From a virus, in the IMG/VR virus record IMGVR_UViG_3300042448_001510, positions 1 through 45,482 of that record: a stretch of DNA of 45,482 nt; one strand, given 5' to 3'. The notes beneath the pieces are model-generated. The model was not told where the DNA came from, made no database searches, and saw nothing but the letters and a program-made list of their open reading frames with translations. Within the stretch, counting starts at the first letter, position 1; each line of letters begins with the position of its first letter. The position numbers and the translations under genes were made by a program. Positions 5,947 to 30,657 of the stretch are shown here, one piece after another.

Positions 5947-5967
5947 ATAGTTTTCCTATTCCTTTAA

Positions 5968-6603: not shown

Positions 6604-6617
6604 TTCTTTTTATCTCC

Positions 6618-8183
6618 TTACGCCGTAGCGTTTCCTGTTAGCTGACCAAGTTTGATGACAATAAACTCTGCTGGGTACTCTAGGGCTACGCCAATTTCAA
6701 TATTAACGCGACCTGAAGTAAGGTCAGAGGCACTGTTTGTTGATGCATCGCATCGTACATAGAAAGCCTTATCTGGGCTTGACCCACGAAGTCCACCCTG
6801 TTGCCAGTATGAACGTAGGAAAGAGCCAAGAGTTACACGAAGCTGAGACCATAGACGTTCGTCATTGTTCTCAAAAATCGCAAATGAGCTTCTATCTGTC
6901 ATTTCTTTCTTGATGTATATGAGGGAGCGACGTACGTTAATGTAGCGGTCTCCCGGGGTGTTATTCATTGTACGTCCGCCCATTACAACAATTCCGGCAC
7001 CAGGTACTTGACGGATTACGTTAATTGGACGTGATGAGACGTTCAAAGCGTCTAGTTGAGCATTAGTCAATTGACGTTCTGCAGATACTGCAAGAGCTAC
7101 GCGGTTTGTATAACCAGCTGGGGTCTTGAATACTCCACGAGAAGCGTCAGTTGCTAAATACTGGCCTACCATCGCTGCACCAGGTGCTTGATTGCGAGTT
7201 GCAGTAGATGAGGCACGAAGTGTGTCTGGAATTGCTACCCATGGGTAGTAGACCGCGGCACATCCACCATCAGATGCGGCAATAAATGCTGCAGTTACGT
7301 CGTTTGCGTATGTTTGAGCCTCAGTTGGGTTAAGGCCTGCTGGGGTATCTACAACTGCAAACGCATCTCCACGACCTTCGCAGTAAGCTACAAGATCTGA
7401 CTGAATGTTAATAGAGAGTGTTCGCTCAGTAGTAGTTCCTGCAGTATTGTACAGGTAGGCAGCTTCTGGTACGTTAAATATCAGAGGATTTTCAATTGGA
7501 TCAAATGTCTCAAGAGCTGTAGAGTACTCAGTTCTTGTTGGTGCAGATCCGTTAAGGCCTGATATAAGAGTTTTTACTCCGTCAACCTTAGGCATATCGT
7601 CCGGAGATACAGAAGCTGAGTTTAGATCAGAAACTATAATAACGCTAGACTGTGAGTTAATTACTGATACGACATAACGTGGGTCAGTAGTAACCATGCT
7701 TAAATCTGTATACTGCTCAAGAATATTAGAGGTTGCGTTTCCACCAATAGTTGGAGCCCCATATACTACAAGAGAGAACCGATTTACCGATCCCGCAGCT
7801 TTTATTTCTACAGATATAGAATTTCCCCAAGTACCAGCGTTTGCAGCTTTTACTAGAAGGGTGTTTAGGGGGGTAGCCGCACGATCAGTCAAGGTTACTT
7901 GAGCTTGTGCAGCACCTGTTCCTACTACACGCTTTACGTATAGTTGACGGCCGCCATTAGCAAAAAAGTTATAGGCAGCCCAAGTTGTTGAATAGGCGTC
8001 TTCTAAAGCTCCAAAAGTCTTGGTAAAATCTGTCCAAGAATTTAGAAGAACAGGGTTAACTGAAGGTCCTTTTGATAATGGACCCACAAATGCTCCAATA
8101 GCGTTTCCGCTATCTGCAAGAGTTACTGCCTGTGGAAGTTCAACTTCCTGAATGAAAACGCCAGGTCTACTGTATGTAGCCAT
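6618..8183 (-). CDS. Contractile tail sheath protein
   Basis: A 521-residue protein starting MATYSRPGVFIQEVE, the typical sheath N-terminus (YxxPGVYxxE). The C-terminal domain includes NVRRSLIYIKKEM, LWSQLRVTLGSFLRSYWQQGGLRG and AFYVRCD, which are highly characteristic of phage sheath proteins. This gene establishes that the phage has a contractile tail. The upstream ribosome site reads AAGGAGT. It is followed by the tube gene after 14 nt. Length is within the usual sheath range. Confidence 0.95.
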   Translation of the reverse strand: MATYSRPGVFIQEVELPQAVTLADSGNAIGAFVGPLSKGPSVNPVLLNSWTDFTKTFGALEDAYSTTWAAYNFFANGGRQLYVKRVVGTGAAQAQVTLTDRAATPLNTLLVKAANAGTWGNSISVEIKAAGSVNRFSLVVYGAPTIGGNATSNILEQYTDLSMVTTDPRYVVSVINSQSSVIIVSDLNSASVSPDDMPKVDGVKTLISGLNGSAPTRTEYSTALETFDPIENPLIFNVPEAAYLYNTAGTTTERTLSINIQSDLVAYCEGRGDAFAVVDTPAGLNPTEAQTYANDVTAAFIAASDGGCAAVYYPWVAIPDTLRASSTATRNQAPGAAMVGQYLATDASRGVFKTPAGYTNRVALAVSAERQLTNAQLDALNVSSRPINVIRQVPGAGIVVMGGRTMNNTPGDRYINVRRSLIYIKKEMTDRSSFAIFENNDERLWSQLRVTLGSFLRSYWQQGGLRGSSPDKAFYVRCDASTNSASDLTSGRVNIEIGVALEYPAEFIVIKLGQLTGNATA

Positions 8184-8231
8184 TCGGTTTTACTCCTTAA
8201 TATGTTAGGTTGTTTACTGTGGGTTCCGAGT

Positions 8232-8831
8232 TTATTGACTGATTGGTGTGAAATCTGTAAATTGCTCTTGTAGTGTGATGTTTGGTGGTGTTAGCACTTC
8301 GTATAGCTGTACAAGCTGAGCTGGGAGGAACTCCGAGCTAACCTGGACGTTGTAGATATTTTTAAACAAGCGCTTGTCTTGTTCAGTCGTATCTCGTTTT
8401 ACAAACCCCATCATATCTATCCTGCGTACAGTGCCATCTTCAGGAATTACTAGGAGTCCAAATCTTAACGGTAATCTCGTTGGAGCAAATAAAGCATTTA
8501 TAATTTGTCGATCATGTCTAGGTTGACGAGCATATGTAGTTATTTGATAGTCTAAATTTACTGGTATTGGGTACCAGGTTGCGTAATCTACGTTTGCACT
8601 ACCACCTTCAGGAGTATACGGCAAATCTATGTAACCTCTATGAGCCCTGTCTAGCGACTCAGCAATTCCTACAAGATCGATTGTAATATATGGGTAGCTC
8701 TGCTGACGGATTTCATTATCTGGTTGTCCAAACCACACCCCTACAGGGCGAGTTGCGTTACCAGAGTCAGAAACAGTAATGCCGCTTATTAAAGTTTTTA
8801 ACGCCTTATCTTCATTAATAATATAGGGCAT
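8232..8831 (-). CDS. Tail terminator/neck protein (putative)
   Basis: A 199-residue protein just upstream of the sheath gene and overlapping the previous gene's stop in a TAATG pair. It reads as a compact alpha/beta protein with PYITIDLVG, PIPVNLDYQITTYARQPRHDRQI and a C-terminal strand-rich segment. Composition and placement resemble tail terminator or tail completion proteins (gp15/gp17-like) that cap the tail at the head-proximal end. The role is inferred from position and pattern. Confidence 0.55.
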   Translation of the reverse strand: MPYIINEDKALKTLISGITVSDSGNATRPVGVWFGQPDNEIRQQSYPYITIDLVGIAESLDRAHRGYIDLPYTPEGGSANVDYATWYPIPVNLDYQITTYARQPRHDRQIINALFAPTRLPLRFGLLVIPEDGTVRRIDMMGFVKRDTTEQDKRLFKNIYNVQVSSEFLPAQLVQLYEVLTPPNITLQEQFTDFTPISQ

Positions 8832-11117: not shown

Positions 11118-12863
11118 TTAAATTGTTCCTAAGAAATTATCAAGTGTTGATCCTTGAGACCCTGATGATGGGGCCTTAATTATACCTACTGAAGTTCCTT
11201 TTGTAGGACTGGTAGGCGTAATAACTATATTTGAGCCTAGCTGACTTGTCAATCCCGCAGAGGCGTAGGCTTTAGCGGTAATCTGGTTTCCAACAGTAGA
11301 TACTATCAAAGATCCTACACTTGTGTAGCCAGAGTTTGTGTTGGTAGCTAAGCGGGTAGCAGATTGAGAAACCACGTTTCCAGACACCGAGCTAACAATA
11401 ACAAGGTCTGTGTGGTAAGTAGTATCTCCACCAGAGTAAGATACGCCTGAACAGCAACCAGATGGTGTACATCCTGCCCCTGAACAAGTAGCCTGTCCTC
11501 CAGAGCAAGAGCTGCTAGTCCCTATTTGATTTTGGTTTAATCCTCCACACGCACCGCCGGTATAACAGTTAAACCCTGTGCAAGAAGCAGACCCTGTGCA
11601 GCTACTAGTCTGTTGCGTAGTTCCGCAATAGTATGTTGTTGGGGTGGTTGTAACTTGCGTATGACAATTATAATAATTAACAGATTCTTGGCGCGTACTT
11701 TGATTCCAGTTTCCAATACATTTTCCAGAGGTAACTGTTGAAGTTTCGCAGTTTTCCCAACAAAAAATAGTTTGAGTGCTGCAGTTGCCAACGCAGCTTG
11801 TGGTAACACTATCACTAGTTCTACAGCAAACAAAAGCCGCGTTTTGAATACACTGGCTGCTAGTTGAGTTAGGTACTACTACGCTACCTGGAGAACAACC
11901 ATCTCCGCCATATTGTGGGTTTTCTGCGGGGTAGTAAGAAAATCCGCTACCCGCACTAGTTACTGATCCAGAACATTGTGTACCACATGCAGGAATACTA
12001 TAAGTAGTGTATTGCACACTTCCTGAGCACTGTGTTCCGCATTGAGGTATGACATAGCTAGTTGTAGTGCTCGTAGTTTGCTCGCGCAATGTGCCGGGGC
12101 AACAATTAGACGAAGGGGTGCCTGTCCAACCTAAATAAGTGTTTGTATAGTCACAAAAAGAGTTGTCTACAGACGAGGTAGAAGTATACGCAAATGTAGC
12201 CCCGCAACCTGAAGCGCATTGGCTAAGAAGAACACCATTTTGAAAGTTACTGCAGTTTGAGGTTCCTGGTACGGAAGTAACCGGAGAACAGCATCCTGAA
12301 GGAAGGCACCCGGTACCGCCACCAGCGCAAGGACTAGAACTTCCATAACTTTGACTTCCAGTACAAGCAGACCCAACTTGAGTTGTATTCCAAGTAGAGT
12401 AGTAATAACTAAAAGATTGAGTGGTTGTGCAACTTCCTACAATAGCTGACGTAGACTGAGTATATTGAGGGTATGTGGCCCACCAAGACCCGGAGTCTGT
12501 TATCCAAAAAACAGCACCGGTTCCACCTGAAACATCTGCACTTACAGAAACATCCGTGCTACCTAAATTAGCTGAAGCGATCGGGTAAGAGCTTGCTGCA
12601 TCATCTGATATTGCTGAGTTGGACCCACTAATACGCCAGTTTCCACGAAGTGCTGTCCATACTTGTCCGCTGTCCGCGGTGCCTAGGCCAGTAGCAGTTG
12701 ACGCCCTATTAAATGCGTCTTGAACTTTAGAGGCAAACCATTGTCTCCACACTCCGTTAATTTTAATGAATGCCGAAGTAACCGTTTTCCATTGACCGTT
12801 TACTTTTACTGAAAGACCAGATGCGGTCCTCCAGGCACCATTAACCTTGGAATTACCTGGCAT
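11118..12863 (-). CDS. Tail protein: jelly-roll domain interrupted by Cys-rich insertion
   Basis: A 581-residue protein. Residues 1-50 carry three VNG/ING-x-W repeats (VNGAWRTASG, VNGQWKTV, INGVWRQW) found at the N-terminus of actinophage tail proteins. Residues about 55-130 look like the first half of a concanavalin/LamG-like jelly-roll (DAFNRAS...GTADSGQVW...VFWITDSGSWW). The expected second half (TDLVIVSSVSG ... TLDNFLGTI) appears only after residue about 490. Between them lie about 350 residues with about 36 cysteines, CC pairs and repeats such as P-x-CGTQCSGSV and PSGCCS. The insertion presumably forms a disulfide-rich or metal-binding outgrowth exposed on the virion. It starts in a TAATG overlap. 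Confidence 0.75.
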   Translation of the reverse strand: MPGNSKVNGAWRTASGLSVKVNGQWKTVTSAFIKINGVWRQWFASKVQDAFNRASTATGLGTADSGQVWTALRGNWRISGSNSAISDDAASSYPIASANLGSTDVSVSADVSGGTGAVFWITDSGSWWATYPQYTQSTSAIVGSCTTTQSFSYYYSTWNTTQVGSACTGSQSYGSSSPCAGGGTGCLPSGCCSPVTSVPGTSNCSNFQNGVLLSQCASGCGATFAYTSTSSVDNSFCDYTNTYLGWTGTPSSNCCPGTLREQTTSTTTSYVIPQCGTQCSGSVQYTTYSIPACGTQCSGSVTSAGSGFSYYPAENPQYGGDGCSPGSVVVPNSTSSQCIQNAAFVCCRTSDSVTTSCVGNCSTQTIFCWENCETSTVTSGKCIGNWNQSTRQESVNYYNCHTQVTTTPTTYYCGTTQQTSSCTGSASCTGFNCYTGGACGGLNQNQIGTSSSCSGGQATCSGAGCTPSGCCSGVSYSGGDTTYHTDLVIVSSVSGNVVSQSATRLATNTNSGYTSVGSLIVSTVGNQITAKAYASAGLTSQLGSNIVITPTSPTKGTSVGIIKAPSSGSQGSTLDNFLGTI

Positions 12864-14132: not shown

Positions 14133-14648
14133 TCAGCCGTTAGGGCTAAATTTAGTAGATTCATCGCCAAAAACAAAGGTTGTTATTGAGTACCTTTCTC
14201 TTTCTAAAACTGGAAATACTTGATGCTTAAGGTGGGCTTTGTGAATAACCATGCTTCCTTGCCTTGGGGTAACGCTTAGACCAAGAGTTGGGTATATCAA
14301 CTCTCCCCCAGTAAAGTCGTCATTTAAATAAATAGCAATACCAAAAACTATTTTTCTTGGGTCATCGGGGTTTCCGCCATCTTCATGCGGCCACATAAAC
14401 TCTGAATTTCTTAACCTTCGTAAATCTCTAGAATAGGTTATTGACTCTATATTAATAAAAAGTGTTTCAATAGTTTCATACACATTGTTCATTTTAAGCA
14501 ATGACTCATCACTTATAGATTTAACTGTATTTCCTACGTGCGTAGTATCCCAATCAATATCTAGTTGAGCCTCAGATACAAGGGTACTTCTCAGCTCTTC
14601 ATCTAAAAACCCCTCAATTTCGTACACACCTTCTCCGTGCTTTATCAT
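14133..14648 (-). CDS. 2-oxoglutarate/Fe(II) oxygenase, prolyl hydroxylase type (A)
   Basis: A 171-residue protein with the full set of residues for an Fe(II)/2-oxoglutarate oxygenase: H88-x-D90 and H142 for iron, and R152 ten residues later for 2-oxoglutarate. The intervening YLNDDFTGGELIYP is a signature of prolyl-4-hydroxylase-like domains. It is the shortest and most downstream of the seven clustered oxygenases. The reaction would be hydroxylation of a substrate with release of succinate and CO2; the substrate is unknown. Followed by about 125 nt without a convincing gene. Confidence 0.85.
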   Translation of the reverse strand: MIKHGEGVYEIEGFLDEELRSTLVSEAQLDIDWDTTHVGNTVKSISDESLLKMNNVYETIETLFINIESITYSRDLRRLRNSEFMWPHEDGGNPDDPRKIVFGIAIYLNDDFTGGELIYPTLGLSVTPRQGSMVIHKAHLKHQVFPVLERERYSITTFVFGDESTKFSPNG

Positions 14649-14650
14649 GA

Positions 14651-15319
14651 TTAGTTATACTTGCTACTGTTGATGTGGCAAATTTCAATTTCATTTATAT
14701 TAACATGGTTTGGTAACGACCCTACCCAGTAGATAGCTTCTGCTAAATCCTCTGCAGTTAAGGCGTAGTCTCGTTTTTGCTCTTGGGTATCAATGGTCGC
14801 TGGACAAATTTCTGTAATTTTAATGCCAAATTGAGGAAACTCAAGCCTCATTGTGTCGATTAGGCCGCGCTCACCCCGCTTGGCGTTTGTGTAATTTCCA
14901 CCGCCACGATAGGGCACCTTGCCTCCAAAAGAAGTAATAAAGACAATTGTTGGAGAATCTGACTTTTCCATGCAGGGTACAAATAGTTGGGAAAGGTACA
15001 TAGGCCCAGATACGTTTATATCGTAGGCGCGTCTAAAGTTATCCATGGTTTCATTAATAATACTAGTTGGGTCAGAGCCACCACCAGCATTGTTAACTAA
15101 AAGGTCTAGGGTTATGTCTTTGTACTGCTCATAGAAGATCTCTATTGCTTTAGAGTCTGTTACGTCTAAGCTATATACCTCAACGTTATCAGATACAAGC
15201 TCAGATACTTTGGAAAGATTTCTTGAAACAGCAATAACCTTATAGCCATTTTCAGATAGGCGTTTAACTGTTGCTAACCCCACACCTTTGCTTGCTCCAG
15301 TTACAATAGCTGTTTTCAT
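14651..15319 (-). CDS. Short-chain dehydrogenase/reductase
   Basis: A 222-residue classical SDR. TGASKGVG (7-14) is the NAD(P)-binding loop, NNAG (76-79) stabilises the fold, and S130, Y143 and K147 form the catalytic set. It would oxidise or reduce a hydroxyl/carbonyl group in the cytoplasm. It lies inside the oxygenase block, 1-2 nt from its neighbours, which suggests a shared pathway: an oxygenase could create the hydroxyl that it then oxidises. The substrate is not readable from sequence. Confidence 0.85.
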   Translation of the reverse strand: MKTAIVTGASKGVGLATVKRLSENGYKVIAVSRNLSKVSELVSDNVEVYSLDVTDSKAIEIFYEQYKDITLDLLVNNAGGGSDPTSIINETMDNFRRAYDINVSGPMYLSQLFVPCMEKSDSPTIVFITSFGGKVPYRGGGNYTNAKRGERGLIDTMRLEFPQFGIKITEICPATIDTQEQKRDYALTAEDLAEAIYWVGSLPNHVNINEIEICHINSSKYN

Positions 15320-15320
15320 A

Positions 15321-15947
15321 TTAATGAATCCAGTGTTGGGGCACCATTATCTTTTCGCCACTCTTCACTAGGTGTGCAGTGTGGTGGTATGGTGGAGATG
15401 GTGGGAAAACAATAATGCTTCCAGCTTTTGGTTTGATAGCAAAAGTATAGCTTTTGTCTTGTGTTGCAATTTCAAAGTCAGGGTTTGGGCTAGCTAGAGT
15501 TAGTATTCCTTCTGGGGAAGCAATAGTAAAAGATAGCTCTCCACCCTCATAGTCGTCATTTAAGTACATAACAAAAGATACTTTAAGACGGCCATCCCCC
15601 TCTTGTTGGTCAAAGTGGGCACCCATATATGTGCCTGCCTTATACTTTTTAATCGGATACATTGGAAATAGTTTAGGCTCATCTGTGATGCCGTGAGCTG
15701 CTGCATAATCTTTTGCTACATCATAAAAAGCTTTTTGTAATGTAGAGTAGATATAAGTCTTCTGGATATCTGACGGGTCTGCAAAAATACTTTTATCTGT
15801 TCCATAGACATACGCTTCCCCACTACACGCCATCCATTCGCCCCAAGGATTTTCGTTGTCCTGGTCAATTGCATCAACAAGCTTCTTTGGGTCTTCAATT
15901 ACGTTTGTGTAGTAGTAAACTTTTTCTTCAAGTATTTCTCTGTCCAT
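15321..15947 (-). CDS. 2-oxoglutarate/Fe(II) oxygenase (B), Lys-type
   Basis: The ATG at 15945-15947 is chosen because AAAGGA lies 7 nt upstream; a longer frame to 16013 would overlap the previous gene by 56 nt. The 208-residue product has H111-x-D113 and a distal His (H189), with K199 ten residues later at the 2-oxoglutarate position, where most relatives have Arg. Collagen prolyl-4-hydroxylases also use Lys there. The central YLNDDYEGGELSF is typical. Substrate unknown. Confidence 0.8.
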   Translation of the reverse strand: MDREILEEKVYYYTNVIEDPKKLVDAIDQDNENPWGEWMACSGEAYVYGTDKSIFADPSDIQKTYIYSTLQKAFYDVAKDYAAAHGITDEPKLFPMYPIKKYKAGTYMGAHFDQQEGDGRLKVSFVMYLNDDYEGGELSFTIASPEGILTLASPNPDFEIATQDKSYTFAIKPKAGSIIVFPPSPPYHHTAHLVKSGEKIMVPQHWIH

Positions 15948-15957
15948 TTTGCGTCCT

Positions 15958-16617
15958 TTAGTACTTATTCTTTTGATAGTGGTCTTTTTCTTTAATGAAT
16001 CCCACAAGAACATATCTTATGGGCCCATCCCCTACATGCTTGACTCCGTGCTCATACTCTTCGTTACCTGGAAAAAATAACATAGTTCCTGGTTTAGGCT
16101 TTAACTGGATATCAAGGTTTGGAAAAAATAATTCGCCGTCTGCATAGTTATCATTAATATATACAATTGTAGCGTATTTTATAGATGGGTCTGTTTTTTG
16201 ATCCGTATGCGCTTTTAACTCTACCCCTGGTTGCATCCGCTGAATTGTTGCAAAACCACTTAAAATTAATTCCGGGTCGGCTTTGACTACCATTGAGTTT
16301 ACAACATCATATAGGGGCCTTTGAATCTCATGATGCAAAATATTAAAGTTTTTATCTTTCCAATTTTGAGTAATTTCAAACTTACCCTCAGCAACTAAGT
16401 TTTCTACATCATCTCTGCCAAATTTTTCCATGCAAAACCATTTTAAGTTTGCGTGGTACTCTACTTCCCAGTCTTCTTGGGGGGTGCTATGTATAATATC
16501 CCAAAAAGTATCTATTTGATCTTGTGATAAAAAGTTGTCCACAGAAAATAGTTCTGAGGTAATGTCTGTAACTACGTACCCGCTATCTATTAGCTGTTGT
16601 TTAAAAGACTCAATCAT
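15958..16617 (-). CDS. 2-oxoglutarate/Fe(II) oxygenase (C)
   Basis: The second in-frame ATG (16615-16617) is preferred: a GAGG lies 9 nt before it, while it is only 1 nt from the first ATG at 16626. The 219-residue product has H137-x-D139, H190 and R201, with YINDNYADGELFFPN between them, a prolyl-4-hydroxylase-like pattern. Its start overlaps the end of gene D by 8 nt. The N-terminal 100 residues are a variable domain that could determine substrate choice. Confidence 0.82.
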   Translation of the reverse strand: MIESFKQQLIDSGYVVTDITSELFSVDNFLSQDQIDTFWDIIHSTPQEDWEVEYHANLKWFCMEKFGRDDVENLVAEGKFEITQNWKDKNFNILHHEIQRPLYDVVNSMVVKADPELILSGFATIQRMQPGVELKAHTDQKTDPSIKYATIVYINDNYADGELFFPNLDIQLKPKPGTMLFFPGNEEYEHGVKHVGDGPIRYVLVGFIKEKDHYQKNKY

Positions 16618-17365
16618 TTGCAACATCCTCTATTTTGTATTTATTCCCGGCTGCGTCTAGCTTCCAGCCTTGCTTAAGGAGCTCTTGCCACTCTGCTCGT
16701 TCAATCTCTTGTTGCGCTCTAGTGGCCTTCATCTCTTCAGCCCATGCATCTCGCACCTCTTGTGGGTACGCTGACTCTTCTCGGTCATCCCAGAAAGAAC
16801 CAATGGTGTATCTGACACCACCTGTAATAAGAGATACTTCGTGCATATTGTTAAACCCGCCGTCAAATACAGCGAGCAGCCCAACTTCTGGTTTAATCTC
16901 TAGGTTTTGTGCTGGGAACCGTAAAAGTCCACCTTCAAAATCATCGTTTAAGTATAGAAACCCTGCGTAGCGGCTTCTTGTAAACGCACCTGAGTTTCCT
17001 TCAGCATCTGTGTTGTCAGAGTGAATTCTTGCGTATGCTCCTGGCTCCCACTTCTGTGTGTGGTAACCAATTTTACAGATTGTTTTTGGGTCAAGGTCGT
17101 GGACTGAAGCAATTGCTTCAGGCATTGCCTTTTCAATATCTGAAAATATAGTTGGGGATAAACCAGCGTCAATAACTTCTTGGTCGTTGTCTTGTGGCAA
17201 AACTGAAGAATATGACTCATAAAATGAAATAGGCATCCAAGAAATTGCCCCATTGTCTGCCTGAGCATCTAAGGCCTGGATCATCTTTTTGCAGTCTTCT
17301 TTGCCTATAAAATTTTTATAAACAACTATATCTTTTGTTATTCTTGTTTTGTTTTCCAAGTTCAT
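16610..17365 (-). CDS. 2-oxoglutarate/Fe(II) oxygenase (D)
   Basis: A 251-residue protein with H115-x-D117, H175 and R185, and YLNDDFEGGLLRFP in the core. It has an extra C-terminal helical tail of about 45 residues rich in Glu, Lys, Trp and Gln that the other copies lack, which may be a docking element. The gene lies between the peroxidase-like gene and oxygenase C, overlapping the latter. Substrate unknown. Confidence 0.85.
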   Translation of the reverse strand: MNLENKTRITKDIVVYKNFIGKEDCKKMIQALDAQADNGAISWMPISFYESYSSVLPQDNDQEVIDAGLSPTIFSDIEKAMPEAIASVHDLDPKTICKIGYHTQKWEPGAYARIHSDNTDAEGNSGAFTRSRYAGFLYLNDDFEGGLLRFPAQNLEIKPEVGLLAVFDGGFNNMHEVSLITGGVRYTIGSFWDDREESAYPQEVRDAWAEEMKATRAQQEIERAEWQELLKQGWKLDAAGNKYKIEDVAND

Positions 17366-17381
17366 TGTGCTTTTACTCCGT

Positions 17382-18155
17382 CTAGTTATTTATAAGGGAT
17401 TTGTCTCCAGCAAGAAGTTTTTCTATCTCCTGTTGAACAAGGGCATACTCTTCATCAAACACTTCTGGGGTTCTTCCTTCTCCCATAGCGGCAGGGGTCC
17501 CTTTAGCTATTAAATCTTCTTTTAGTGTCTTTTCAATATCATAATTTAACACTGTGCACTGAAACCAGTTGGCTACATACCCATCTTTATCAATAAGGTA
17601 CTTTTCAAAGTTTCCGCCCTGCATTGCGCCGTTACCAAAAGGCTGATTTAACCAAGGTGACAAATAACCATCTCTGTCTGGAATGCCGAGTTCTCTTTGT
17701 TTTTCAGCAAACACAAGCATTTGCTCGGCTATTTCTTTGTATAGCTCATGAGTTTCTTTTCGTGGTTGACCTAGGCCGTTTACAGAGCTATCGCCCTTGT
17801 GAGGGCTAAGCTCAGTAGCACTCTCATTTGGGTTTGACGACACCATCTCTGAGAACTTAAACGTGGTTCCGTAGACTTCTTGACCATACTCTTGTGAATC
17901 TAAGCCACAGGTAATGCCTTCAGACCACTTGCCCTTAGTTACTCCTGGGCCACAATAGTCATTAGTAGGGATAGCAATAACTTGAAAATCATCTCCGCCG
18001 TACTTATCTTGAAGCCATTGAAGAACTTCCATTTGATTAGCGTTACCACAGCCTACGGTTGTATTAGCCAGTAGGGTGACTTTACCCTTAAATTGACTTA
18101 AGAAGTCAGGGGATCCCTCAGCAGAGTTAAGCGGGATGTCGTAAATTGATTTCAT
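17382..18155 (-). CDS. Glutathione-peroxidase-like protein
   Basis: A 257-residue thioredoxin-fold protein. LANTTVGCGNANQMEVLQWL matches the active-site region of glutathione peroxidases, with C36 as peroxidatic Cys. TNDY replaces the usual CNQF, and GGNFEKYLIDKDG matches the WNF-x-K-F-L-x-x-x-x-G element with Gly in place of Trp, so the catalytic tetrad looks altered. It may use thioredoxin or act as a disulfide-exchange protein rather than a true peroxidase. In this block it could protect Fe(II) enzymes from peroxide or help disulfide formation in the Cys-rich tail protein (inference). Confidence 0.75.
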   Translation of the reverse strand: MKSIYDIPLNSAEGSPDFLSQFKGKVTLLANTTVGCGNANQMEVLQWLQDKYGGDDFQVIAIPTNDYCGPGVTKGKWSEGITCGLDSQEYGQEVYGTTFKFSEMVSSNPNESATELSPHKGDSSVNGLGQPRKETHELYKEIAEQMLVFAEKQRELGIPDRDGYLSPWLNQPFGNGAMQGGNFEKYLIDKDGYVANWFQCTVLNYDIEKTLKEDLIAKGTPAAMGEGRTPEVFDEEYALVQQEIEKLLAGDKSLINN

Positions 18156-18176
18156 ATGTTTTATTGTACACCGTCA

Positions 18177-18863
18177 TTACGGCTTTCTATCCCCTGTATG
18201 CGCCGTAATTTCCCAAAAGAAGGGGCACGTAAATCTTAGGCCACTCTTGATCTCAGTAACCCCGTGAATGTAGTTTTTGTCGCCGGGGAAGAAGTAGGCG
18301 GCGCCCTTTTTAGGCTTAAACTGCACGCCCTGTAGCGGGAAGTACAGCTCCCCGCCCTCATAGTCGTCGTTTAGATAAAACAAACTTGATAGGTCGTAGT
18401 TTGGGAAGTCGTTAGGTGTTCCGGCGTCAGGGCCCTCGTGAAGCTCTTTATCAGCGTGTGGTTTTTGAAACTGCCCAGGAAGCCATTTAACAATAGTTGT
18501 ACCAGTTGGTATAACCTCTACCTTGTAGAACTCTTCAATAATTGGTCGTAGTCTTTGAAATAGCCCAGCAATTACTGGAGATATTTTTGGGTCATTTTTA
18601 TCTAAAGTTGGCTGAGTTGCAACCCTATCTTTCCAATAATCTGAGTCGTAGGTAACGGTCCCATTCTCATTTGTATGGCTTTGCGTTACATCCCAAATTG
18701 TTAAAGACTTAGCGGCTTTCTCTAAAAACTCTATCTCTTCTTGGGTCATAAAGTTCTCTAGCTCAACAATCATGTCTTTGCTGTCCCCAAACCATCCTGA
18801 GGGAGTCATAGATGGCGTTCTTTTTGCTACAGTGTACGAGTCTTTATCTTGTTCCATATTCAT
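18177..18863 (-). CDS. 2-oxoglutarate/Fe(II) oxygenase (E)
   Basis: A 228-residue protein with H136-x-D138, H200 and R210; YLNDDYEGGELYFP lies in the core. A loop of about 20 residues after the HxD motif (HEGPDAGTPNDFPNYD) is longer than in the other copies. The start overlaps the stop of the DUF6065-like gene as ATGA. The chemistry is expected to be hydroxylation; the substrate is not known. Confidence 0.85.
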   Translation of the reverse strand: MNMEQDKDSYTVAKRTPSMTPSGWFGDSKDMIVELENFMTQEEIEFLEKAAKSLTIWDVTQSHTNENGTVTYDSDYWKDRVATQPTLDKNDPKISPVIAGLFQRLRPIIEEFYKVEVIPTGTTIVKWLPGQFQKPHADKELHEGPDAGTPNDFPNYDLSSLFYLNDDYEGGELYFPLQGVQFKPKKGAAYFFPGDKNYIHGVTEIKSGLRFTCPFFWEITAHTGDRKP

Positions 18864-19576
18864 AGTATATCTCTTTTCGTTTTATCTATTACTCCTAATT
18901 TTAATGTTTTTACTTCGTGAGAGCCTTGAGATTCTTTTTTCTCATTTACAGCATCTCTATACCAGTCTGTCCATTTTCCAGACGAGTTTATTTCTTGTGC
19001 GGCAGATCCATAGGACATGTTTGCATTTAGTCTTTTTCTATCTGGATCTTGGTACTCAACAATCTCAATATTTGTCCCATTTAAATTTGACAAAGATATG
19101 GGAATAATTGTGGCAACCGGAGTTCCCGCTTTAATAATTACCCGCTTATTGGCAACCTTTGCCTTAATAGCTAAGGGCAAAGGGTTGTCATAAAAAGAGG
19201 TACTAATTAAAGACGACATTGTCTCAAATTCGTCACTAAAGTAATTTACTGGGTTAATGGTAAAAATACTAACATCCTGATCTGTTCTAAAAACTAACCC
19301 GGTATTTAGGCTTATAGAGGACTGACCCCTTCCAGAGTAGGCCCCTTCTGGACTAAATACTTGTACACGATCTGGGGTTTGGTCATTTACCCCATCCCAA
19401 ATAAACTCAATATCTTGTAGACAAGACAGGCTCCAGCCAATCACATTTGATTGGGTTACTGGAAAACACCTATAGGCATGGTTCTCTGATGTTGCATCCA
19501 TCCAATCTCTTTTAATCGACATAGGTTGAATGTCAAACAAAGCTCCTTGTGTCTTCTCAACTGAGATATTAAACAT
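18860..19576 (-). CDS. DUF6065-like protein, copy 1
   Basis: A 238-residue protein of the DUF6065-like type (pattern YRCFPVTQSNVIGWSLSC near the N-terminus, PVNYF in the middle and IKAGTPVATIIPISL towards the end). The last element resembles a beta-hairpin also present in the protein at 20242-21009 (PEGTPYMQVLPFKR). It is sandwiched between oxygenases F and E, with 1-nt and 4-nt overlaps, so it is almost certainly co-expressed with them. No catalytic residues are evident. It may be a substrate-recognition or sugar/ligand-binding partner; function unknown. Confidence 0.6.
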   Translation of the reverse strand: MFNISVEKTQGALFDIQPMSIKRDWMDATSENHAYRCFPVTQSNVIGWSLSCLQDIEFIWDGVNDQTPDRVQVFSPEGAYSGRGQSSISLNTGLVFRTDQDVSIFTINPVNYFSDEFETMSSLISTSFYDNPLPLAIKAKVANKRVIIKAGTPVATIIPISLSNLNGTNIEIVEYQDPDRKRLNANMSYGSAAQEINSSGKWTDWYRDAVNEKKESQGSHEVKTLKLGVIDKTKRDIL

Positions 19577-20232
19577 TAATCTGCGTCTGCGCTATACATT
19601 TCTGGAGTATGAAACTTTTTGCTGTAATCTAACATTGTAACAATAGAGTATTTAGTTCCAGAAGTTACCGGTAGCGCTTGATGTGGGTACATAAAATTTG
19701 ATGGAAAAATAAACAGGTCCCCAGCATCAGGCTTAACCTTTAAGTTTTGTAGTCTAAAGAAAAGCTCTCCACCCTCATAATCATCGTTTGGATACCCAAC
19801 TAAAGAGACCGTACAGTTATAGGAAAAGCCATGGTCGTGATGTTCCATAAAGTGCTGTCCTGGACCATACTTAATGAAGTTAAATGCTTCCCAGTACTTT
19901 AGGTTGTTAATGTTATACATCCTTGAGTAGTCTTCAACTGCTGGCAGCTTTACGTCATAAAGATCTTGCCAAAGTGATTGAAGGTTTTGACTAACCTGGC
20001 TTTTATCATTTTCAAGATCAGTTTTCTTAAATTTAAAGTCGTTGCAATCTCTGTACTCTGGCATAAGCTGCTTATACCCAACATATGCAGGTTGCCAAGC
20101 GTACCCAGTAGTATCCCCTTCTGGCTTAAGGTTTGCTTCAATTCGGCCCATAACATCAATGTCTTTATTGATTACGCCCTTATAGCAAAAAATGCCGCTG
20201 CCTAAATCAACTTTTTCTGTCCATGTCTGCAT
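19576..20232 (-). CDS. 2-oxoglutarate/Fe(II) oxygenase (F), Lys-type
   Basis: A 218-residue protein with H131-x-D133 (in HHDHG), H184 and K194. The Lys, ten residues after the distal His, is the residue collagen prolyl-4-hydroxylase uses for the 2-oxoglutarate carboxylate. It closely resembles oxygenase G (NDDYEGG core, P-S-N-F/Y before the distal His, SGTKY). F and G are each followed by a DUF6065-like gene, so an oxygenase plus DUF6065 unit appears duplicated. Confidence 0.85.
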   Translation of the reverse strand: MQTWTEKVDLGSGIFCYKGVINKDIDVMGRIEANLKPEGDTTGYAWQPAYVGYKQLMPEYRDCNDFKFKKTDLENDKSQVSQNLQSLWQDLYDVKLPAVEDYSRMYNINNLKYWEAFNFIKYGPGQHFMEHHDHGFSYNCTVSLVGYPNDDYEGGELFFRLQNLKVKPDAGDLFIFPSNFMYPHQALPVTSGTKYSIVTMLDYSKKFHTPEMYSADAD

Positions 20233-20241
20233 TACATTCTC

Positions 20242-21009
20242 CTATTTGTATTCTCGTCTTGACCAAACACTATTTTGGTATACCCCGCCATCAGGCTGGC
20301 GATAAAACTGCATGTTATTAACTAGTTTATCATACATAGTAGATTGATCTGGGATCTCTATTTTATGTTCCCAGTTTTCTCTTTTAAACGGAAGAACCTG
20401 CATATACGGGGTTCCTTCCGGTAAGGTGCCTTCCCAGCCTTCTGGAAGAAAAAATGGAAAAGTTCCAAGTAAGTGAAGTTTATCTGAGTCCACAACGCCA
20501 GTAGTATTTAAAAATGGTAAGTCAAACCTATTCATTGGTGTCATAAACAGTGCACTATACCCTTCTGGAAGCTCTAATCCCCAAGGAGAACTCCAGGCAA
20601 AGTGGGTTTGATAATATCCTTTTGGGTGTTCAAACTGTGGCATTGGGGGCCTTTGTGTACAAAAATCTTGGTACTTAGGGTTATCAATTTTTACATCTAT
20701 GACTCCCTGATCATTTTTATAAAAAACTAGGTCGCATGGTGTTTTAAAAATGTACCCGGTTGTAAAGGCATCCATAATAGCGGGGCACGCTTTCCATGTC
20801 GGAATCTTTCCATAATCATCAGTTGTGCCCTCTTTAGGAAACGGACAAACTTCTTTTGGCGCTTTGTAGTATTCCCCGTTTGGCATCTTTGCAAATCTGT
20901 CTGCATCTTTATACCAGGCAGGAATTTGTGTTTGTGTTGGTACGGGAACAGAGATATGCTTTTTATCTATCCACGGCCTAAATGATCTAAATATGGCTAC
21001 TAAAGACAT
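20242..21009 (-). CDS. DUF6065-like protein, copy 2 (divergent)
   Basis: A 255-residue protein rich in Pro, Trp and Phe. A central WSSPWGLELPEGYSALFMTP and a later LPEGTPYMQVLPFKRENW align by eye with the protein at 18860-19576. The N-terminus (VPTQTQIPAWYKDADRF) resembles phage proteins of unknown function. It lies between oxygenases G and F; the upstream stop/start pair is TAATG. It lacks obvious enzyme motifs. Likely part of the same complex or pathway as the oxygenases. Confidence 0.55.
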   Translation of the reverse strand: MSLVAIFRSFRPWIDKKHISVPVPTQTQIPAWYKDADRFAKMPNGEYYKAPKEVCPFPKEGTTDDYGKIPTWKACPAIMDAFTTGYIFKTPCDLVFYKNDQGVIDVKIDNPKYQDFCTQRPPMPQFEHPKGYYQTHFAWSSPWGLELPEGYSALFMTPMNRFDLPFLNTTGVVDSDKLHLLGTFPFFLPEGWEGTLPEGTPYMQVLPFKRENWEHKIEIPDQSTMYDKLVNNMQFYRQPDGGVYQNSVWSRREYK

Positions 21010-21716
21010 TACTTGTGCCCCAATTCATTGATATCTGTCATAACAACCACGCAATATTTTGTCCCTGAAACCATTGGCAGGGATGCATGCTCATAGATAT
21101 AGTTTGATGGGAACACCGCGATGTCCCCTACTTTTGGTTTATAAACTAGATTATCAAGTCTTGGGAACTTAAGGTCTCCACCCTCATAATCATCGTTAAT
21201 ATAAATAACCGCAGATACTGTGCAGTTGTATGCAGGGCCGTGGTCTGCGTGAATGTTGAAGTGAGTCCCTGCCCCCTCATACTTTACAAAGTTAAAAGCT
21301 TCGTAATATACGACGTTAATGCCCCAATACCTAGCATAGTCGTCTATACAGTACTTAAGCTTTTGGTATATCTCCTCATGCAAGTCTATAAGTTCAGCGT
21401 TTGACTCATCTTTTGGCCCAAGGTTTTCCTGCTTATACTTAAAATCTACACAGTCTCTTGCCCGCTTAACTGGGACATCAGACTGCGTAACTTGCGCCTC
21501 TGACCACTTGTATTTGTTGCCTGGTGATAGGTTGGATTCAAGAGTGTTAATGTATCTTGCAGCATCTTCACTGGAAAAAGTGTTTTGGTAAACGTGTAGT
21601 CCCAAACCTAAATTTTTAACACTTACTTTATCGTCTAGAGCTCTTTCAGGAACTCTATTTGATGCAGTCTCTGACCTATCTTTTGTAAACCAGATGTTTT
21701 CATTTTCATTGTGCAT
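21009..21716 (-). CDS. 2-oxoglutarate/Fe(II) oxygenase (G), Lys-type
   Basis: A 235-residue protein, first oxygenase of the cluster. Residues H156-x-D158, H210 and K220 form the iron and 2-oxoglutarate sites; YINDDYEGGDLKFP lies in the core. The Lys at the co-substrate position, spaced ten from the His, is collagen prolyl-4-hydroxylase-like. It is a clear paralogue of F. Its stop overlaps the ATG of the divergent DUF6065-like gene. Confidence 0.85.
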   Translation of the reverse strand: MHNENENIWFTKDRSETASNRVPERALDDKVSVKNLGLGLHVYQNTFSSEDAARYINTLESNLSPGNKYKWSEAQVTQSDVPVKRARDCVDFKYKQENLGPKDESNAELIDLHEEIYQKLKYCIDDYARYWGINVVYYEAFNFVKYEGAGTHFNIHADHGPAYNCTVSAVIYINDDYEGGDLKFPRLDNLVYKPKVGDIAVFPSNYIYEHASLPMVSGTKYCVVVMTDINELGHK

Positions 21717-21734: not shown

Positions 21735-21980
21735 CTAATTAAGTGGCTGTCTTTTCCATTTTCCAATAGGACACTCTGCATCCGCAAGCGTTGTTTTTAA
21801 CGGCATAATGCATCCGCATAGCTTACAGCTTTTTGTAACCTTAATAAGGTTTTCACAAGACATGCATTCATCAAGTCTTTTTTTAATAATTTCCTGGTCA
21901 TCAATTCTTTTGCCAGAATCAATTAAGTGCCAAGGCCTTGAGTCTCCAAGAGCCTCTTTCCATTCACTCCATTTAGACAT
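21735..21980 (-). CDS. Zinc-ribbon protein, DUF6171-like, copy 2
   Basis: An 81-residue protein with cysteines at about 39, 42, 52, 55, 57 and 70 (CMSC, CKLCGC, ECPIGKW). It is the paralogue of the protein at 10867-11109. It follows the gene for the two-repeat small protein by 3 nt. Probably binds zinc; the repeated pairing with an FT(S/A)P-type protein suggests they act together, perhaps in fibre assembly. Confidence 0.7.
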   Translation of the reverse strand: MSKWSEWKEALGDSRPWHLIDSGKRIDDQEIIKKRLDECMSCENLIKVTKSCKLCGCIMPLKTTLADAECPIGKWKRQPLN

Positions 21981-21983
21981 AGG

Positions 21984-22415
21984 TTACTCTGGAGACGTAA
22001 AGGTTGTGCCGTCCCAGATAGAGCCACGATTAACTGTTTGGCCTTCTGGTACCTTAATGACAATAACTTCTTGAGCAAAAGCAGCGGCGTTCATTAAATC
22101 TGTGTGACCACCTTTTGGAGATACCGTAGTTAAGAACACGGTGTTGTCCACTAGGAAAGAGTATCTTCCCCAATCAGGGGTATCGTTGAACCTTTCAGGT
22201 ATTTCTCCTCCCGTAAAAGATTCACCGTCCCAAACTGATCCAGGATAGACATTTGGGATATCTGTTGTAACCAGTGTTGTTATTGGCAGGCCGCTATTTA
22301 GCGCATTATCAATTCGCTGAATTAAAATGTCTGCTTGAGGGCTCTCAAGGTGTAGCATATTAAAAACTTCGTAAGAGTTTTCAGATACTTTTGTTGCATA
22401 CGCATACGTACTCAT
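21984..22415 (-). CDS. Two-repeat small protein (WDG-x-x-FT motif)
   Basis: A 143-residue protein made of two related halves, the first ending PGSVWDGESFTGGE and the second RGSIWDGTTFTSPE. The single-unit paralogue is at 10658-10867. Such short modules occur in tail-fibre-related phage proteins, where they may cap or stabilise the fibre. The gene starts after a good AAGGAGA ribosome site and sits between the Phe-Pro repeat protein and the zinc-ribbon gene. Confidence 0.6.
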   Translation of the reverse strand: MSTYAYATKVSENSYEVFNMLHLESPQADILIQRIDNALNSGLPITTLVTTDIPNVYPGSVWDGESFTGGEIPERFNDTPDWGRYSFLVDNTVFLTTVSPKGGHTDLMNAAAFAQEVIVIKVPEGQTVNRGSIWDGTTFTSPE

Positions 22416-23416: not shown

Positions 23417-25066
23417 TTAAGCTGTCAAGTCGCCGAAGACAACCCAGGTATTTTCTGCTCTTTTGAAAAGGGTGCATGAAGACCATTGGGTTCTCAGTTT
23501 TAATCCTGGTGTTGCGTTTACTGTTACTCCAGCAGCTCCAGCGATTGTTACCTGCCCTGTAGAAGTTTGAAGAATATCAATTGATGTTCCTACTGGGAAG
23601 GCTACTGCCGAGTTTAAAGGTATTGTGAGCGTCATGGCGGATGATGAAGCCATTTCAATTAAATCATCTCTTTCAGTCAATGCTGAAAGTGTGTAAGAGG
23701 CTGTCTTTTGAATAATAGGGGTACGTGATGGGACGCCTTCAAGGGCCTGTGTTCCATCTGAAAAGACAATTCCTGCAGCAGGAAGAGTTACAGTGCCAGT
23801 AAATGTGGGAGAAGCAAGCGGGGCTTTTAATCCAAGATTAGTTGTTACTGTTGATGCAAAGTTTGCATCGTCACCAAGTGCTGCTGCAAGCTCGTCAAGT
23901 GTGTTTAAAGCTGCTGGTGCTCCTGAAAGCAATGCATTTACTTGTGATGTTGCGTCTGCAATTGCTTCTGATTTAGCAGTTGCAATTGCTGAAGCCTGCG
24001 CTGTTGATACCGGCTTTGCTGAATCTGCTGTGTCGTCAACGTTTCCAAGACCAACCATAGACTTGGTAATGCCAGAAACGGTTCCTGTAAATGTAGGGCC
24101 TGAAAGGTTGGCTTTTAAATCAAGAGCGGTCTGTTGCGCTGTTGATACCGGCTTACTTGCGTCTGCTGTGTTATCTACGTTACCTAGCCCTACGTGAGAT
24201 TTAGTTACGCCTGAGACTGTTCCTGTGAAAGTTGGGTTAGCCAAGGGTGCATATGTAGAAGCCGCTGTTGCAGAGGCAAGTTTTAAATCAAGTGCTGTTT
24301 GTGTTGCTGTGGAAATTGGCTTGTTAGCATCTGTTGTATTATCTACACTGCCTAGGCCTACATCTGATTTAACTAGTCCAGATGGAGTGGTAATTGTTTT
24401 ATTTGTAAGGGTCTGAGTTCCAGTAGTTGTTACAAGAAGGCTAGTGTCTGTAATTCCATGAACATTTAATGTATCTGCTTCGTGAGTACCCAGTGACGTA
24501 GAGACTGCGTTAGAGGCTGCTGTATCAGCGTATGCTTTAGTTGCAAGTTCTGCTGTATCTGCAATCCCATGTACGGCCGTTGTGTCTGAGCTATGTGTGC
24601 TTACAGCCGTGTCTGCGTATGACTTTGTTGCAAGATCGGCGGTATCGGCTATTCCATGAACAGAGGTTGTATCTGAGCTATGTGTTCCTATCGCATTTGT
24701 TGCATATTCTTGAGTAGCAATTGTTCCTGTTGAATCTGGAAGAGTTAATGTTCTGTCTGCTGTAGGGTCTGCTACTGCAAAGGTAGTCTCAAAAGCATTT
24801 GCAGTTGTGCCCTCAAATACAAGGCTGGCACCAGTGTCAAGAGATACTGTGCCAGTAAAAGTCGGGGAAGCAATTGGTGCGTAAAGGCTGGCTGCAGCTG
24901 CTGGAGTTAGGGTGATATAAGGTAGCGAAGCCCAAACTGTAAGTCCGTCTCCAACTTTAAGTTTCTTAGTGTCAGTCTCTACACCAACTTCACCTTCAAG
25001 AAGAATTGGGTTTGAGGCGGTCCACTCAGCCGCAGTTCCCCTGCGTAGTAGAATATTAACTGCCAT
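23417..25066 (-). CDS. Tail fibre with Mtd-like N-terminus and fibre repeats
   Basis: A 549-residue fibre. The N-terminus (LLRRGTAAEWTASNPILLEG, then KLKVGDGLTVW) matches the major tropism determinant N-terminal domain that joins many phage fibres to the tail. Residues about 120-190 repeat HSSDTT-x-VHGIADTA-x-LATK. Residues about 230-370 repeat KS-x-VGLG-x-VD-x-T-x-D-x-KP-x-STA, the Phage_fiber_2 repeat. The C-terminus is a beta domain with a tip region (IIQKTASYTLSALTERDDLI). Starts in a TAATG overlap. Likely involved in receptor binding. Confidence 0.85.
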   Translation of the reverse strand: MAVNILLRRGTAAEWTASNPILLEGEVGVETDTKKLKVGDGLTVWASLPYITLTPAAAASLYAPIASPTFTGTVSLDTGASLVFEGTTANAFETTFAVADPTADRTLTLPDSTGTIATQEYATNAIGTHSSDTTSVHGIADTADLATKSYADTAVSTHSSDTTAVHGIADTAELATKAYADTAASNAVSTSLGTHEADTLNVHGITDTSLLVTTTGTQTLTNKTITTPSGLVKSDVGLGSVDNTTDANKPISTATQTALDLKLASATAASTYAPLANPTFTGTVSGVTKSHVGLGNVDNTADASKPVSTAQQTALDLKANLSGPTFTGTVSGITKSMVGLGNVDDTADSAKPVSTAQASAIATAKSEAIADATSQVNALLSGAPAALNTLDELAAALGDDANFASTVTTNLGLKAPLASPTFTGTVTLPAAGIVFSDGTQALEGVPSRTPIIQKTASYTLSALTERDDLIEMASSSAMTLTIPLNSAVAFPVGTSIDILQTSTGQVTIAGAAGVTVNATPGLKLRTQWSSCTLFKRAENTWVVFGDLTA

Positions 25067-28642: not shown

Positions 28643-29719
28643 TTAGTTGGTTTCTGCTAGAACTACAGACTGATCTGTGATTAGACCTAGACCGTAGATT
28701 GCGTACCAAGCAAGTGCATGCTCACGACCGAAGTCAAGGATACCGCCATCGCGGAGCTCAACTGGTAGAGAGATTGCGTGACCAAATGCATTGTCACCAA
28801 TAAAGATAGCTGTGTAGCGATCCTTATTACCGTTACCGGTCTTTGTGACTGGTGTAGTGTAACCTCCACCAGTTGGGTATGCAATGCTGCCAGCAGCAAC
28901 TGCGGTGTCAGCAGAGTATCCTGAACCTGCACCGTTTGTTACCTTCTGGATCTGTGTGGTCTCGATAAATACTGTGTCGTATAGACGACCAATTTCACCA
29001 AGCATGAAGTTACCTGGAGCTGCGTACTTTGTTACTTCGATAAACTCTGGGTTGTCACGAAGCTTGCGGCTCTGGTGTGGGTGAATGAATGCAACATATG
29101 TCTCACCTAGGCGAGGAATGTTCTTTGTTGCAAGTGTCTCTACTGCGTCCTTAACAACACCTGTAGTGAGGTCAAATGCGCCAGTTAGAGATGCACGGTT
29201 TGTACCAGCGGTACCTGTTCCGTACCAGTCATTTGCAGCTGTAAGACCTGTGCGGTCATAGCCGTAGATAACTGAAGATGCGGCCATGAGTGTGTCACGA
29301 GCCTGACCATCAAGGTATAGGGCCATGTTACGGCCAAGTAGACGTGAAGCTGAAGCCATTACGTCATCGAATGATGCGTTAAGTAGGAGTTCAGAAACAG
29401 CAATCGCATAACCGTGTTCAGCAACTGTAATTGAGAATTGCTGAGCTGTTAGTGCCTTAGTTTCCATACGAACGCCTTCAACAAGCGTACCGGCAAAGCC
29501 GAGGTTGTTGTAACGCATAAAGTTGATCTGAAGACCTGGTGCAACTCCTAGTTCTGTCTTCTTAACAGCGAACTGTTCGAAGCGAAGAATAGGCATTGAC
29601 TGGAAAAGAATTTCCTTTGACCAGATGGTCTGAATTGCTTGTGTAAGCTGGCTGTTAGCGCCAGAATACGCTGTTGGGGCAGCGGCTAGATTGCCGGTAC
29701 CAGTTACGGCTGATGCCAT
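28643..29719 (-). CDS. Major capsid protein (N4-gp56/HK97-fold type)
   Basis: A 358-residue protein. The sequence shows the N4-gp56-family pattern: LQINFMRYNNLG, LVEGVRMETKALT, then SITVAEHGYAIAVSELLLN, LGRNMALYLDGQARDTLM, and YVAFIHPHQSRKLRDNPEF followed by FMLGEIGRLYDTVFIETTQI. It should adopt the HK97 fold and build the head shell. The gene follows the scaffold gene and is preceded by AAGGAGT and an A/T-rich repeat; this presumably supports high expression. Confidence 0.9.
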   Translation of the reverse strand: MASAVTGTGNLAAAPTAYSGANSQLTQAIQTIWSKEILFQSMPILRFEQFAVKKTELGVAPGLQINFMRYNNLGFAGTLVEGVRMETKALTAQQFSITVAEHGYAIAVSELLLNASFDDVMASASRLLGRNMALYLDGQARDTLMAASSVIYGYDRTGLTAANDWYGTGTAGTNRASLTGAFDLTTGVVKDAVETLATKNIPRLGETYVAFIHPHQSRKLRDNPEFIEVTKYAAPGNFMLGEIGRLYDTVFIETTQIQKVTNGAGSGYSADTAVAAGSIAYPTGGGYTTPVTKTGNGNKDRYTAIFIGDNAFGHAISLPVELRDGGILDFGREHALAWYAIYGLGLITDQSVVLAETN

Positions 29720-29737
29720 GTCGGTGTTACTCCTTAG

Positions 29738-29755: not shown

Positions 29756-29775
29756 GGTAGGTAATGTCTTTAGAA

Positions 29776-30652: not shown

Positions 30653-30657
30653 AAACT

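Follow-up and report, generated by a model that had tools for sequence, protein, structure and literature searches.

An ordered array of prolyl-hydroxylase-type oxygenase genes linked to the gene of an FFPP-repeat tail-region protein in presumed actinophages

The DNA analysed here, referred to as the window, is the whole 45,482-base virus record IMGVR_UViG_3300042448_001510 (positions 1 to 45,482), with a guanine-plus-cytosine content of 43.5%. It contains 11 nearly contiguous genes on the minus strand, bounded by fibre genes on the upstream side and by tail genes on the downstream side; seven of these 11 encode 2-oxoglutarate (2OG)-Fe(II) oxygenases, which were named A to G (Table 1). A preliminary description made from the letters of the window had reported seven separate open reading frames (ORFs), each with an HxD motif, a distal His, a basic residue 10 or 11 positions later and an ND(D/N) core; all of them were present on the minus strand where reported. 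The HxD motif, the distal His and the basic residue were aligned in all seven (the last at +10, or +11 in C), and the ND(D/N) core was found in each. The short-chain dehydrogenase (SDR; PF00106) and the peroxidase-like gene (PF00255) described as interleaved with them were likewise confirmed.

Table 1. Features of the window in the array region, and the capsid and sheath genes used for comparison.
Feature	Coordinates	Strand	Evidence and remarks
Contractile tail sheath	6618..8183	-	phrog_23 E 1.5e-52
Oxygenase A	14133..14648	-	HED88...H142...R152; short, divergent, not universal in relatives; phrog_61 E 7e-14
SDR, seemingly accessory	14651..15319	-	PF00106 137 bits; homologues in 103/261 loci
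Oxygenase B	15321..16013	-	HFD133...H211...K221; PF13640 46.8 bits
Oxygenase C	15958..16626	-	HTD140...H193...R204; PF13640 43.7 bits
Oxygenase D	16610..17365	-	HSD115...H175...R185; PF13640 32.1 bits
Glutathione-peroxidase (GPx)/thioredoxin-fold-like	17382..18155	-	PF00255 33.6 bits (gathering score 27); homologues in 49/261 loci
Oxygenase E	18177..18863	-	HAD136...H200...R210; PF13640 37.3 bits
D2, DUF6065 protein	18860..19576	-	PF19541 92 bits (gathering score 26.6); phrog_7084; in 219/261 loci
Oxygenase F	19576..20232	-	HHD131...H184...K194; PF13640 51.4 bits; sister of G (42% identity; blastp, tree)
D1, DUF6065-like	20242..21009	-	phrog_7084; in 212/261 loci
Oxygenase G	21009..21716	-	HAD156...H210...K220; PF13640 42 bits; 200/205 orthologue ORFs fit motif
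Small Cys-containing protein	21735..21980	-	phrog_13558; DUF6171-like below cut-off
Unnamed 143-aa protein between FF and G	21984..22415	-	homologues in 93/261 loci
FF, fn3-containing tail-region protein, 312 aa	22457..23395	-	PF00041 fn3 34.9 bits; candidate substrate
Mtd_N-domain tail-fibre protein, encoded directly upstream of FF	23417..25066	-	PF18454 58.9 bits
Major capsid protein	28643..29719	-	73% identity to Streptomyces phage LuckySocke

The products of B to G exceeded the gathering score of 27 bits of the profile PF13640 (2OG-FeII_Oxy_3), with 32.1–51.4 bits and whole-protein E values of 2e-7 to 2e-13, and PF13640 matched the window record at six places. Oxygenase A showed no match to PF13640 and was assigned via its fold and phrog_61 alone ('2OG-Fe(II) oxygenase'), a family that matched all seven proteins. 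Structure prediction (AlphaFold) was confined to oxygenase A and the DUF6065-like protein D1. The model of A, based on an alignment of 48 sequences, had a predicted local distance difference test (pLDDT) value of 92.1, and its best match in the PDB was vCPH of Paramecium bursaria Chlorella virus 1 (PBCV-1; 5c5t; E 6e-10, 19% identity, template-modelling (TM) score 0.66), followed by the prolyl hydroxylases of Pseudomonas putida and Bacillus anthracis. When the sequence of G was compared with the PDB, the prolyl 4-hydroxylase (P4H) of B. anthracis ranked first (3itq, E 3e-4). A to G are thus seven divergent Fe(II)/2OG oxygenases of the prolyl-hydroxylase type, B to G by profile and A by fold, in agreement with the type proposed beforehand. 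Chance occurrence of the motif was ruled out by the Pfam and PHROG profiles and the fold of A. Assignment of A, C and E to the TET/JBP family was not supported, with 20.0, 12.5 and 20.4 bits compared to the Tet_JBP (PF12851) gathering score of 34.9.

The preliminary description overlooked a gene a short way upstream of the array that encodes a protein with FFPP repeats, here called FF. This protein consists of an fn3 domain followed by a tract of phenylalanine and proline and a Cys-rich C-terminus. The tract (residues 200–283) comprises 84 residues in FFPP and FFP units, 46 F and 38 P and nothing else, and no Gly-X-Y collagen-like tract was found in FF. Its codons were TTC (34), TTT (12), CCA (21), CCG (8), CCT (8) and CCC (1); as third positions vary and no other residue intrudes, selection seems to act on the protein sequence. 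FF gave no match as a tblastn query, where the BLAST low-complexity filter may hide the tract.

Relatives were taken from IMG/VR contigs, which are often fragments, so that any absence given here holds only for the stretch covered. With E as query at least 594 relatives were found among viral contigs and 80 loci were kept for comparison; the array-keyed set provided 148 loci for the linkage test, and one collection scan kept the best 80 matches. An FFPP-keyed set was obtained with a DNA pattern coding for FFPP repeats in viral contigs, blind to oxygenases (at least 120 stretches, 116 loci scored). The array-keyed loci, the FFPP-keyed loci and the window formed a set of 261 loci containing 1287 oxygenase ORFs. 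Controls were a capsid-keyed set (80 loci among the matches listed, with capsid proteins 82–99% identical to that of the window) and a background of 1.08 Mb in 120 arbitrarily chosen viral loci, not habitat-matched. Near-duplicates and loci on the same contig were frequent in the sets; the 71 linked FFPP loci described below, for example, formed 41 clusters by first oxygenase.

Linkage was scored over an equal distance of 3.5 kb both ways, counting only loci with at least 3.5 kb available. An oxygenase was found within this distance downstream of the FFPP gene and on its strand in 71 of 79 testable FFPP-keyed loci (37/116 were too short). The FFPP gene was shared with array-keyed loci in 23 of the 79, and 49 of the remaining 56 have an oxygenase. 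In the array-keyed loci, a regular expression detected an FFPP ORF within 3.5 kb upstream of G in 58 of 63 testable loci (85/148 were too short). All five failures, read by eye, have an FFPP-type protein upstream: the tracts were short in L043 and L047 and interrupted in L032 and L074, and in L080 the ORF lies further off with other oxygenases between. No oxygenase was found in the 120 arbitrary viral loci at an equal threshold (0/120), and the sole 'FF' match there was rejected as a PL-rich frame with no FFPP repeat; the arbitrary and capsid controls were unchanged between E 1e-5 and 1e-3. When the 79 whole records behind the at least 120 FFPP stretches were searched, six of which were also array-keyed, PF13640 was present in 72 (37/40 and 35/39). 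These comparisons show a strong linkage between FFPP genes and oxygenases. In other phages the median distance from the FFPP gene to the array that follows it is about 0.6 kb, and collagen-like ORFs were found in 13 of the 261 loci.

Some variants of the FFPP gene were observed. In three loci (L032:611-1936 (+), L074:2088-3404 (+) and L171:6071-7390 (+)) a longer terminal domain, which by its appearance may be of the Hint/intein self-processing type, replaces the Cys-rich tail. Two consecutive FFPP-repeat ORFs lie ahead of the array in L069 (3496-4458 and 5274-6248) and L174 (598-1095 and 1114-1644).

Comparison of gene order in relatives showed a conserved organization, FF-G-F-E-(H)-D-C-B-(A). 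The commonest long orders among the 261 loci were FF-G-F-E-H-D-C-B (44 loci), FF-G-F-E-D-C-B (29) and FF-G-F-E-D-C-B-A (12); contig ends can cause shorter ones such as FF-G-F-E (25 loci). In many relatives an eighth oxygenase, H, occupies the slot of the GPx-like gene of the window, and A is uncommon (13 good orthologues, 11 spanning the motif). All 26 records selected for length contained 6–10 PF13640 matches; two FFPP-keyed records contained 11 and 13, only some of which were placed in the array. In a tree built from 55 array and four cyanophage members, A to H were each split off by one branch (support 94 for D and 100 for the others), with long branches between the clades; three cyanophage members fell near F/G and one near D, on long branches and with unsure placement. 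F and G are 42% identical and the other paralogue pairs about 26–40% over the main local segment. A lenient motif pattern fitted 1251 of the 1287 homologous ORFs, and 27 of the 36 failures were cut by contig edges; iron ligands are hence retained rather than missing from several members, and for the fold the same was seen in A alone.

Median ratios of non-synonymous to synonymous substitution rates (dN/dS) compared to the window genes were 0.026 for E (n = 200), 0.04 for F (204), 0.061 for G (183), 0.062 for D (158), 0.088 for B (71), 0.099 for C (137) and 0.357 for A (7), and 0.128 for the capsid gene (5). These values are rough because synonymous sites were saturated in many pairs (119 of 200 for E). 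Judged from these ratios, A to G are under purifying selection, and order and tree together indicate an old gene set, conserved in order, with eight orthologue lineages. Simple redundancy, which the preliminary description had argued against from divergent N-termini, is thus not what the eight monophyletic clades and the median dN/dS of 0.03–0.10 for B to G (0.36 for A, 7 pairs) suggest. Recent tandem duplication was ruled out by the deep clades and low paralogue identities, and decayed copies by dN/dS and motif retention. A catalytically dead H was also rejected: 91 of 222 'other' members seemed to be without HxD...H through misalignment, and the six that were read have HSD or HTD nearby. Separately, a divergent oxygenase-like paralogue with MKD at the HxD site, which may be catalytically dead, was observed between FFPP and G at L067:615-1205, L069:6491-7048, L076:6450-7046 and L244:9070-9627.

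The array was also found on other phage backbones, which the preliminary description had not noticed. We surveyed 41 records, namely 24 array-keyed and 15 FFPP-keyed records (6–13 PF13640 matches) together with G053 and G099 (none). The capsid of the window was found in six of the 41 and its sheath in eight (39 of the 41 have PF13640), where fragments may miss these genes; a phrog_23 sheath was found in 3 of 21 records. The six array-bearing records that share the capsid type of the window do so at 81–100% identity. Three records (G013, G067 and G069) are 105–114 kb long, and G013 and G067 contain a phrog_12 portal, a phrog_9427 protease and a phrog_1623 head protein, compared to a phrog_64 portal and a phrog_1357 capsid in the window. 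The locus of G013 nevertheless showed high similarity to the window in E (93%), SDR (89%), D (87%) and G (78%), lower similarity in F (65%), C (61%) and the two DUF6065-type genes (60 and 51%), and only 42% identity in B. This similarity despite foreign head genes supports a transfer of the cassette, in whole or in part, between phages that differ in their heads.

Sixteen capsid-keyed loci extend 9 kb or more downstream. Of these, 15 have neither FFPP nor oxygenase and one (L323) has both; in two shorter loci (L203 and L292) an FFPP gene lies close to the contig end. L272 (capsid 99% and portal 96% identical to the window) contained neither in the 10 kb covered. Whole records were searched for 29 of the 80 loci, of which 27 were without PF13640 and two had one match. 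Collagen-like tracts were present instead in 7 of the 15 array-lacking relatives. Collagen-like GXY proteins were observed downstream of the capsid gene in L272 and L273, records without PF13640, so that such fibres seem not to need this enzyme.

The phage type was compared with Borockvirus-type Streptomyces phages. BRock and LuckySocke showed 72–73% capsid, 58–59% portal and 51–53% terminase identity, and their head and tail genes, including portal, sheath and tube, are collinear with those of the window. They differ in that neither complete genome has a PF13640 match and no oxygenase is annotated between the fibre and sheath genes. Divergence from the Streptomyces phages was uneven between head and tail modules: the region 5131-8831 (sheath, tube and baseplate hub) is just 31–40% identical, and within 28643-34898 the capsid is 73% and the portal 58% identical. 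WhiB serves as an actinobacterial marker according to PMC6802176. No whiB was found in the window record, and it was present in both Streptomyces phages and in 7 of 13 relatives with the array or FFPP; a relative of 100,769 bases with identical capsid and sheath proteins has three WhiB places. Based on these gene contents the host is probably actinobacterial. A scan of genome contigs with E gave one distant match in a Hellea metagenome-assembled genome and no host was found, and a search of phage records for the array at DNA level gave no match.

We consider it reasonably probable that the region is a mobile actinophage tail-fibre maturation cassette, whose paralogous hydroxylases act on the FFPP tract that a tail appendage carries. 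As far as sequence comparison reaches, the enzymes were shown to be of P4H type with intact motifs, to form distinct lineages and to be co-inherited with FFPP. According to this model the phage would make the tail-region protein FF with its fibronectin-type domains, FFPP/FFP tract and Cys-rich end, and the downstream genes on the same strand would supply usually 6–10 prolyl-hydroxylase-type paralogues and two DUF6065-type proteins. Late in infection, before or during tail assembly, the oxygenases would hydroxylate prolines of the tract, and the paralogues may split the work by position, register (FFP or FFPP) or ring carbon; several of them would suit several kinds of proline, such as the first or second of PP, a lone P or a different ring carbon. 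FFPP without polar groups should aggregate, and hydroxyproline would make it more soluble and fix ring pucker and backbone geometry. The very hydrophobic repeat might in this way become soluble and form a stiff rod or an adhesive on the virion. A more specific version, in which an FFPP fibre and usually 6–10 distinct hydroxylases that write a position-specific hydroxyproline pattern are exchanged as a unit between phages with different heads, as a phage analogue of extensin or collagen, is put forward tentatively and could as easily prove wrong as right, or slightly more so.

Several observations weigh against a maturation cassette. Eight of the 79 testable FFPP loci (L159, L183, L192, L200, L228, L232, L241 and L246) have no oxygenase in reach; a further FFPP ORF with an oxygenase behind it is present in L192, L200 and L241 but lies too close to the contig end to be counted, and the records of L159 and L228 contain 6 and 8 PF13640 places elsewhere. 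No PF13640 was found in the records of L183 and L232 (G053 and G099; 38 and 48 kb), whose FFPP proteins differ beyond the tract, and PF13640 was absent from 7 of the 79 FFPP records. The capsid control rests on one positive locus (Fisher p = 0.06). Among relatives that lack the array in the stretch covered, L337 contains a 43% relative of FF without the FFPP tract, and L303, which has no FFPP tract either, a 30% relative of D1, which indicates that parts of the cassette exist apart from the full set. A second Pro-rich protein is present in the window (39168-41036; 622 aa, 24% Pro, PEP-type repeats), although it also occurs in the array-lacking L272 and L288, whose records have no PF13640. Known prolyl hydroxylases favour X-Pro-Gly, poly-Pro, Ser-Pro or HIF-type sites, and FFPP is none of these. 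The reading gives no reason for 6–10 enzymes, and FF and the array could be neighbours only through a common swapped tail region.

The oxygenases might act on another protein, either a different tail fibre such as that encoded at 23417-25066 or a host protein such as EF-Tu, a reported substrate of bacterial prolyl hydroxylases, with FF as a mere neighbour. The array does sit in a fibre-rich region, and the model of A resembles the P. putida (PPHD) and B. anthracis enzymes, which share its fold and the HxD...H...K/R motif and differ in that EF-Tu is named with both in PDB titles. These bacterial enzymes are single genes, and they have substrates besides EF-Tu. No such enzymes were found in the two Borock-type Streptomyces phages or in most of the capsid relatives examined, although these have fibres and, presumably, hosts among the actinobacteria. 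Of the 15 capsid relatives that lack the array, 12 have homologues of the fibre at 23417-25066, so this fibre can do without the array; FFPP, by contrast, tracks it. We regard another protein substrate as unlikely. It is still less probable that FF, the DUF6065 genes and the oxygenases form one receptor-binding island by neighbour effect, with the enzymes, together with SDR, acting on a surface lipid, a sugar or a small molecule. 2OG oxygenases have many substrates and SDR homologues occur in 103 of the 261 loci, but this is just a part of the loci, many of them fragmentary, so that core membership of SDR is unsupported, and the model of A is most similar in fold to prolyl hydroxylases acting on proteins.

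A metabolic role, in which the array consumes 2-oxoglutarate or shifts the nitrogen or redox state of the host, has been proposed for cyanophages with several 2OG oxygenases in PMC3037559. One enzyme would suffice for such a role, whereas the array retains eight separate orthologue lineages next to tail genes and coupled to a single repeat protein, and we find this role very improbable. Modification of nucleic acid by TET/JBP- or AlkB-like activity has hardly any probability in our view: the weak Tet_JBP matches (E 3-4e-4 for A and E and 0.086 for C) were all below the cut-off, the top structural matches of the A model are prolyl hydroxylases, and the genes lie among tail genes.

Viral prolyl hydroxylation (PBCV-1) and multiple 2OG oxygenases (cyanophages) are known already. 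PBCV-1 is an algal virus with one prolyl 4-hydroxylase, whose virus-encoded P4H-type fold was the top structural match of A; here, by comparison, presumed actinophages have usually 6–10 paralogues in a single block next to the gene of an FFPP protein. In PMC9301287, viral use of prolyl 4-hydroxylase is called cryptic, and hydroxyproline in viral proteins is named in the title of a work cited there (Eriksson, 1999). The cyanomyovirus oxygenases belong to the same superfamily (PF13640, phrog_61). The preliminary description's statement that single 2OG oxygenases are known in phages was correct but understated, as up to five per cyanomyovirus genome are listed in Table 3 of PMC3037559. G matched 113 of 50,697 phage records, all 113 named as cyanobacterial or marine viruses, with 26–39% identity among the 30 matches listed. 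In three cyanophage regions the organization differed, with a single oxygenase, or perhaps two together, close to helicase, ribonucleotide-reductase or uvsX genes.

In open-licence full-text literature, no title or abstract start was found that describes a multi-oxygenase array with an FFPP protein. Judged from these titles and abstract starts, such a cassette of several paralogues in fixed order, coupled to an FFPP protein, seems to be new, and the array was rightly called unusual beforehand. 2OG oxygenases recur in aquatic phages, and here the enzymes accompany an obvious candidate substrate, so that a single short repeat peptide would allow a direct test. If the maturation reading is true, some 'auxiliary metabolic' phage oxygenases would serve in virion maturation, and FFPP would represent a novel type of fibre material that is built post-translationally.

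The two DUF6065-like genes reported beforehand both matched phrog_7084; only D2 passed the Pfam profile PF19541. D1 did not match PF19541, and 3 of 67 aligned D1 members matched at E <= 1, the best at 7e-5. The D1 sequence gave no match in the PDB. Its model (pLDDT 87.7) showed a weak match to dUTPases with Foldseek (best E 6.6e-4, query TM 0.2–0.3) and Z scores of 8.5–9.5 with VIA (3zf0: Z 9.5, root-mean-square deviation 4.7, 121 aligned; 2py4: Z 8.8, deviation 2.5, 113 aligned). The predicted fold may thus weakly resemble that of dUTPase/dCTP deaminase, and D1 is perhaps a re-used dUTPase-type trimer. Relatives of D1 were found in 49 haloarchaeal virus records; in halophage HF1 one lies near baseplate genes where none of 29 features is annotated as an oxygenase, so D1 need not accompany oxygenases. 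D2 gave no match in phage records. The GPx-like and SDR genes look accessory. The product of 21984..22415 matched neither PHROG nor Pfam. Further downstream, 11118-12863 encodes a protein of 581 aa with a very high content of Cys, Gly, Ser and Thr and homologues in just 11 of the 261 loci, possibly another unusual fibre.

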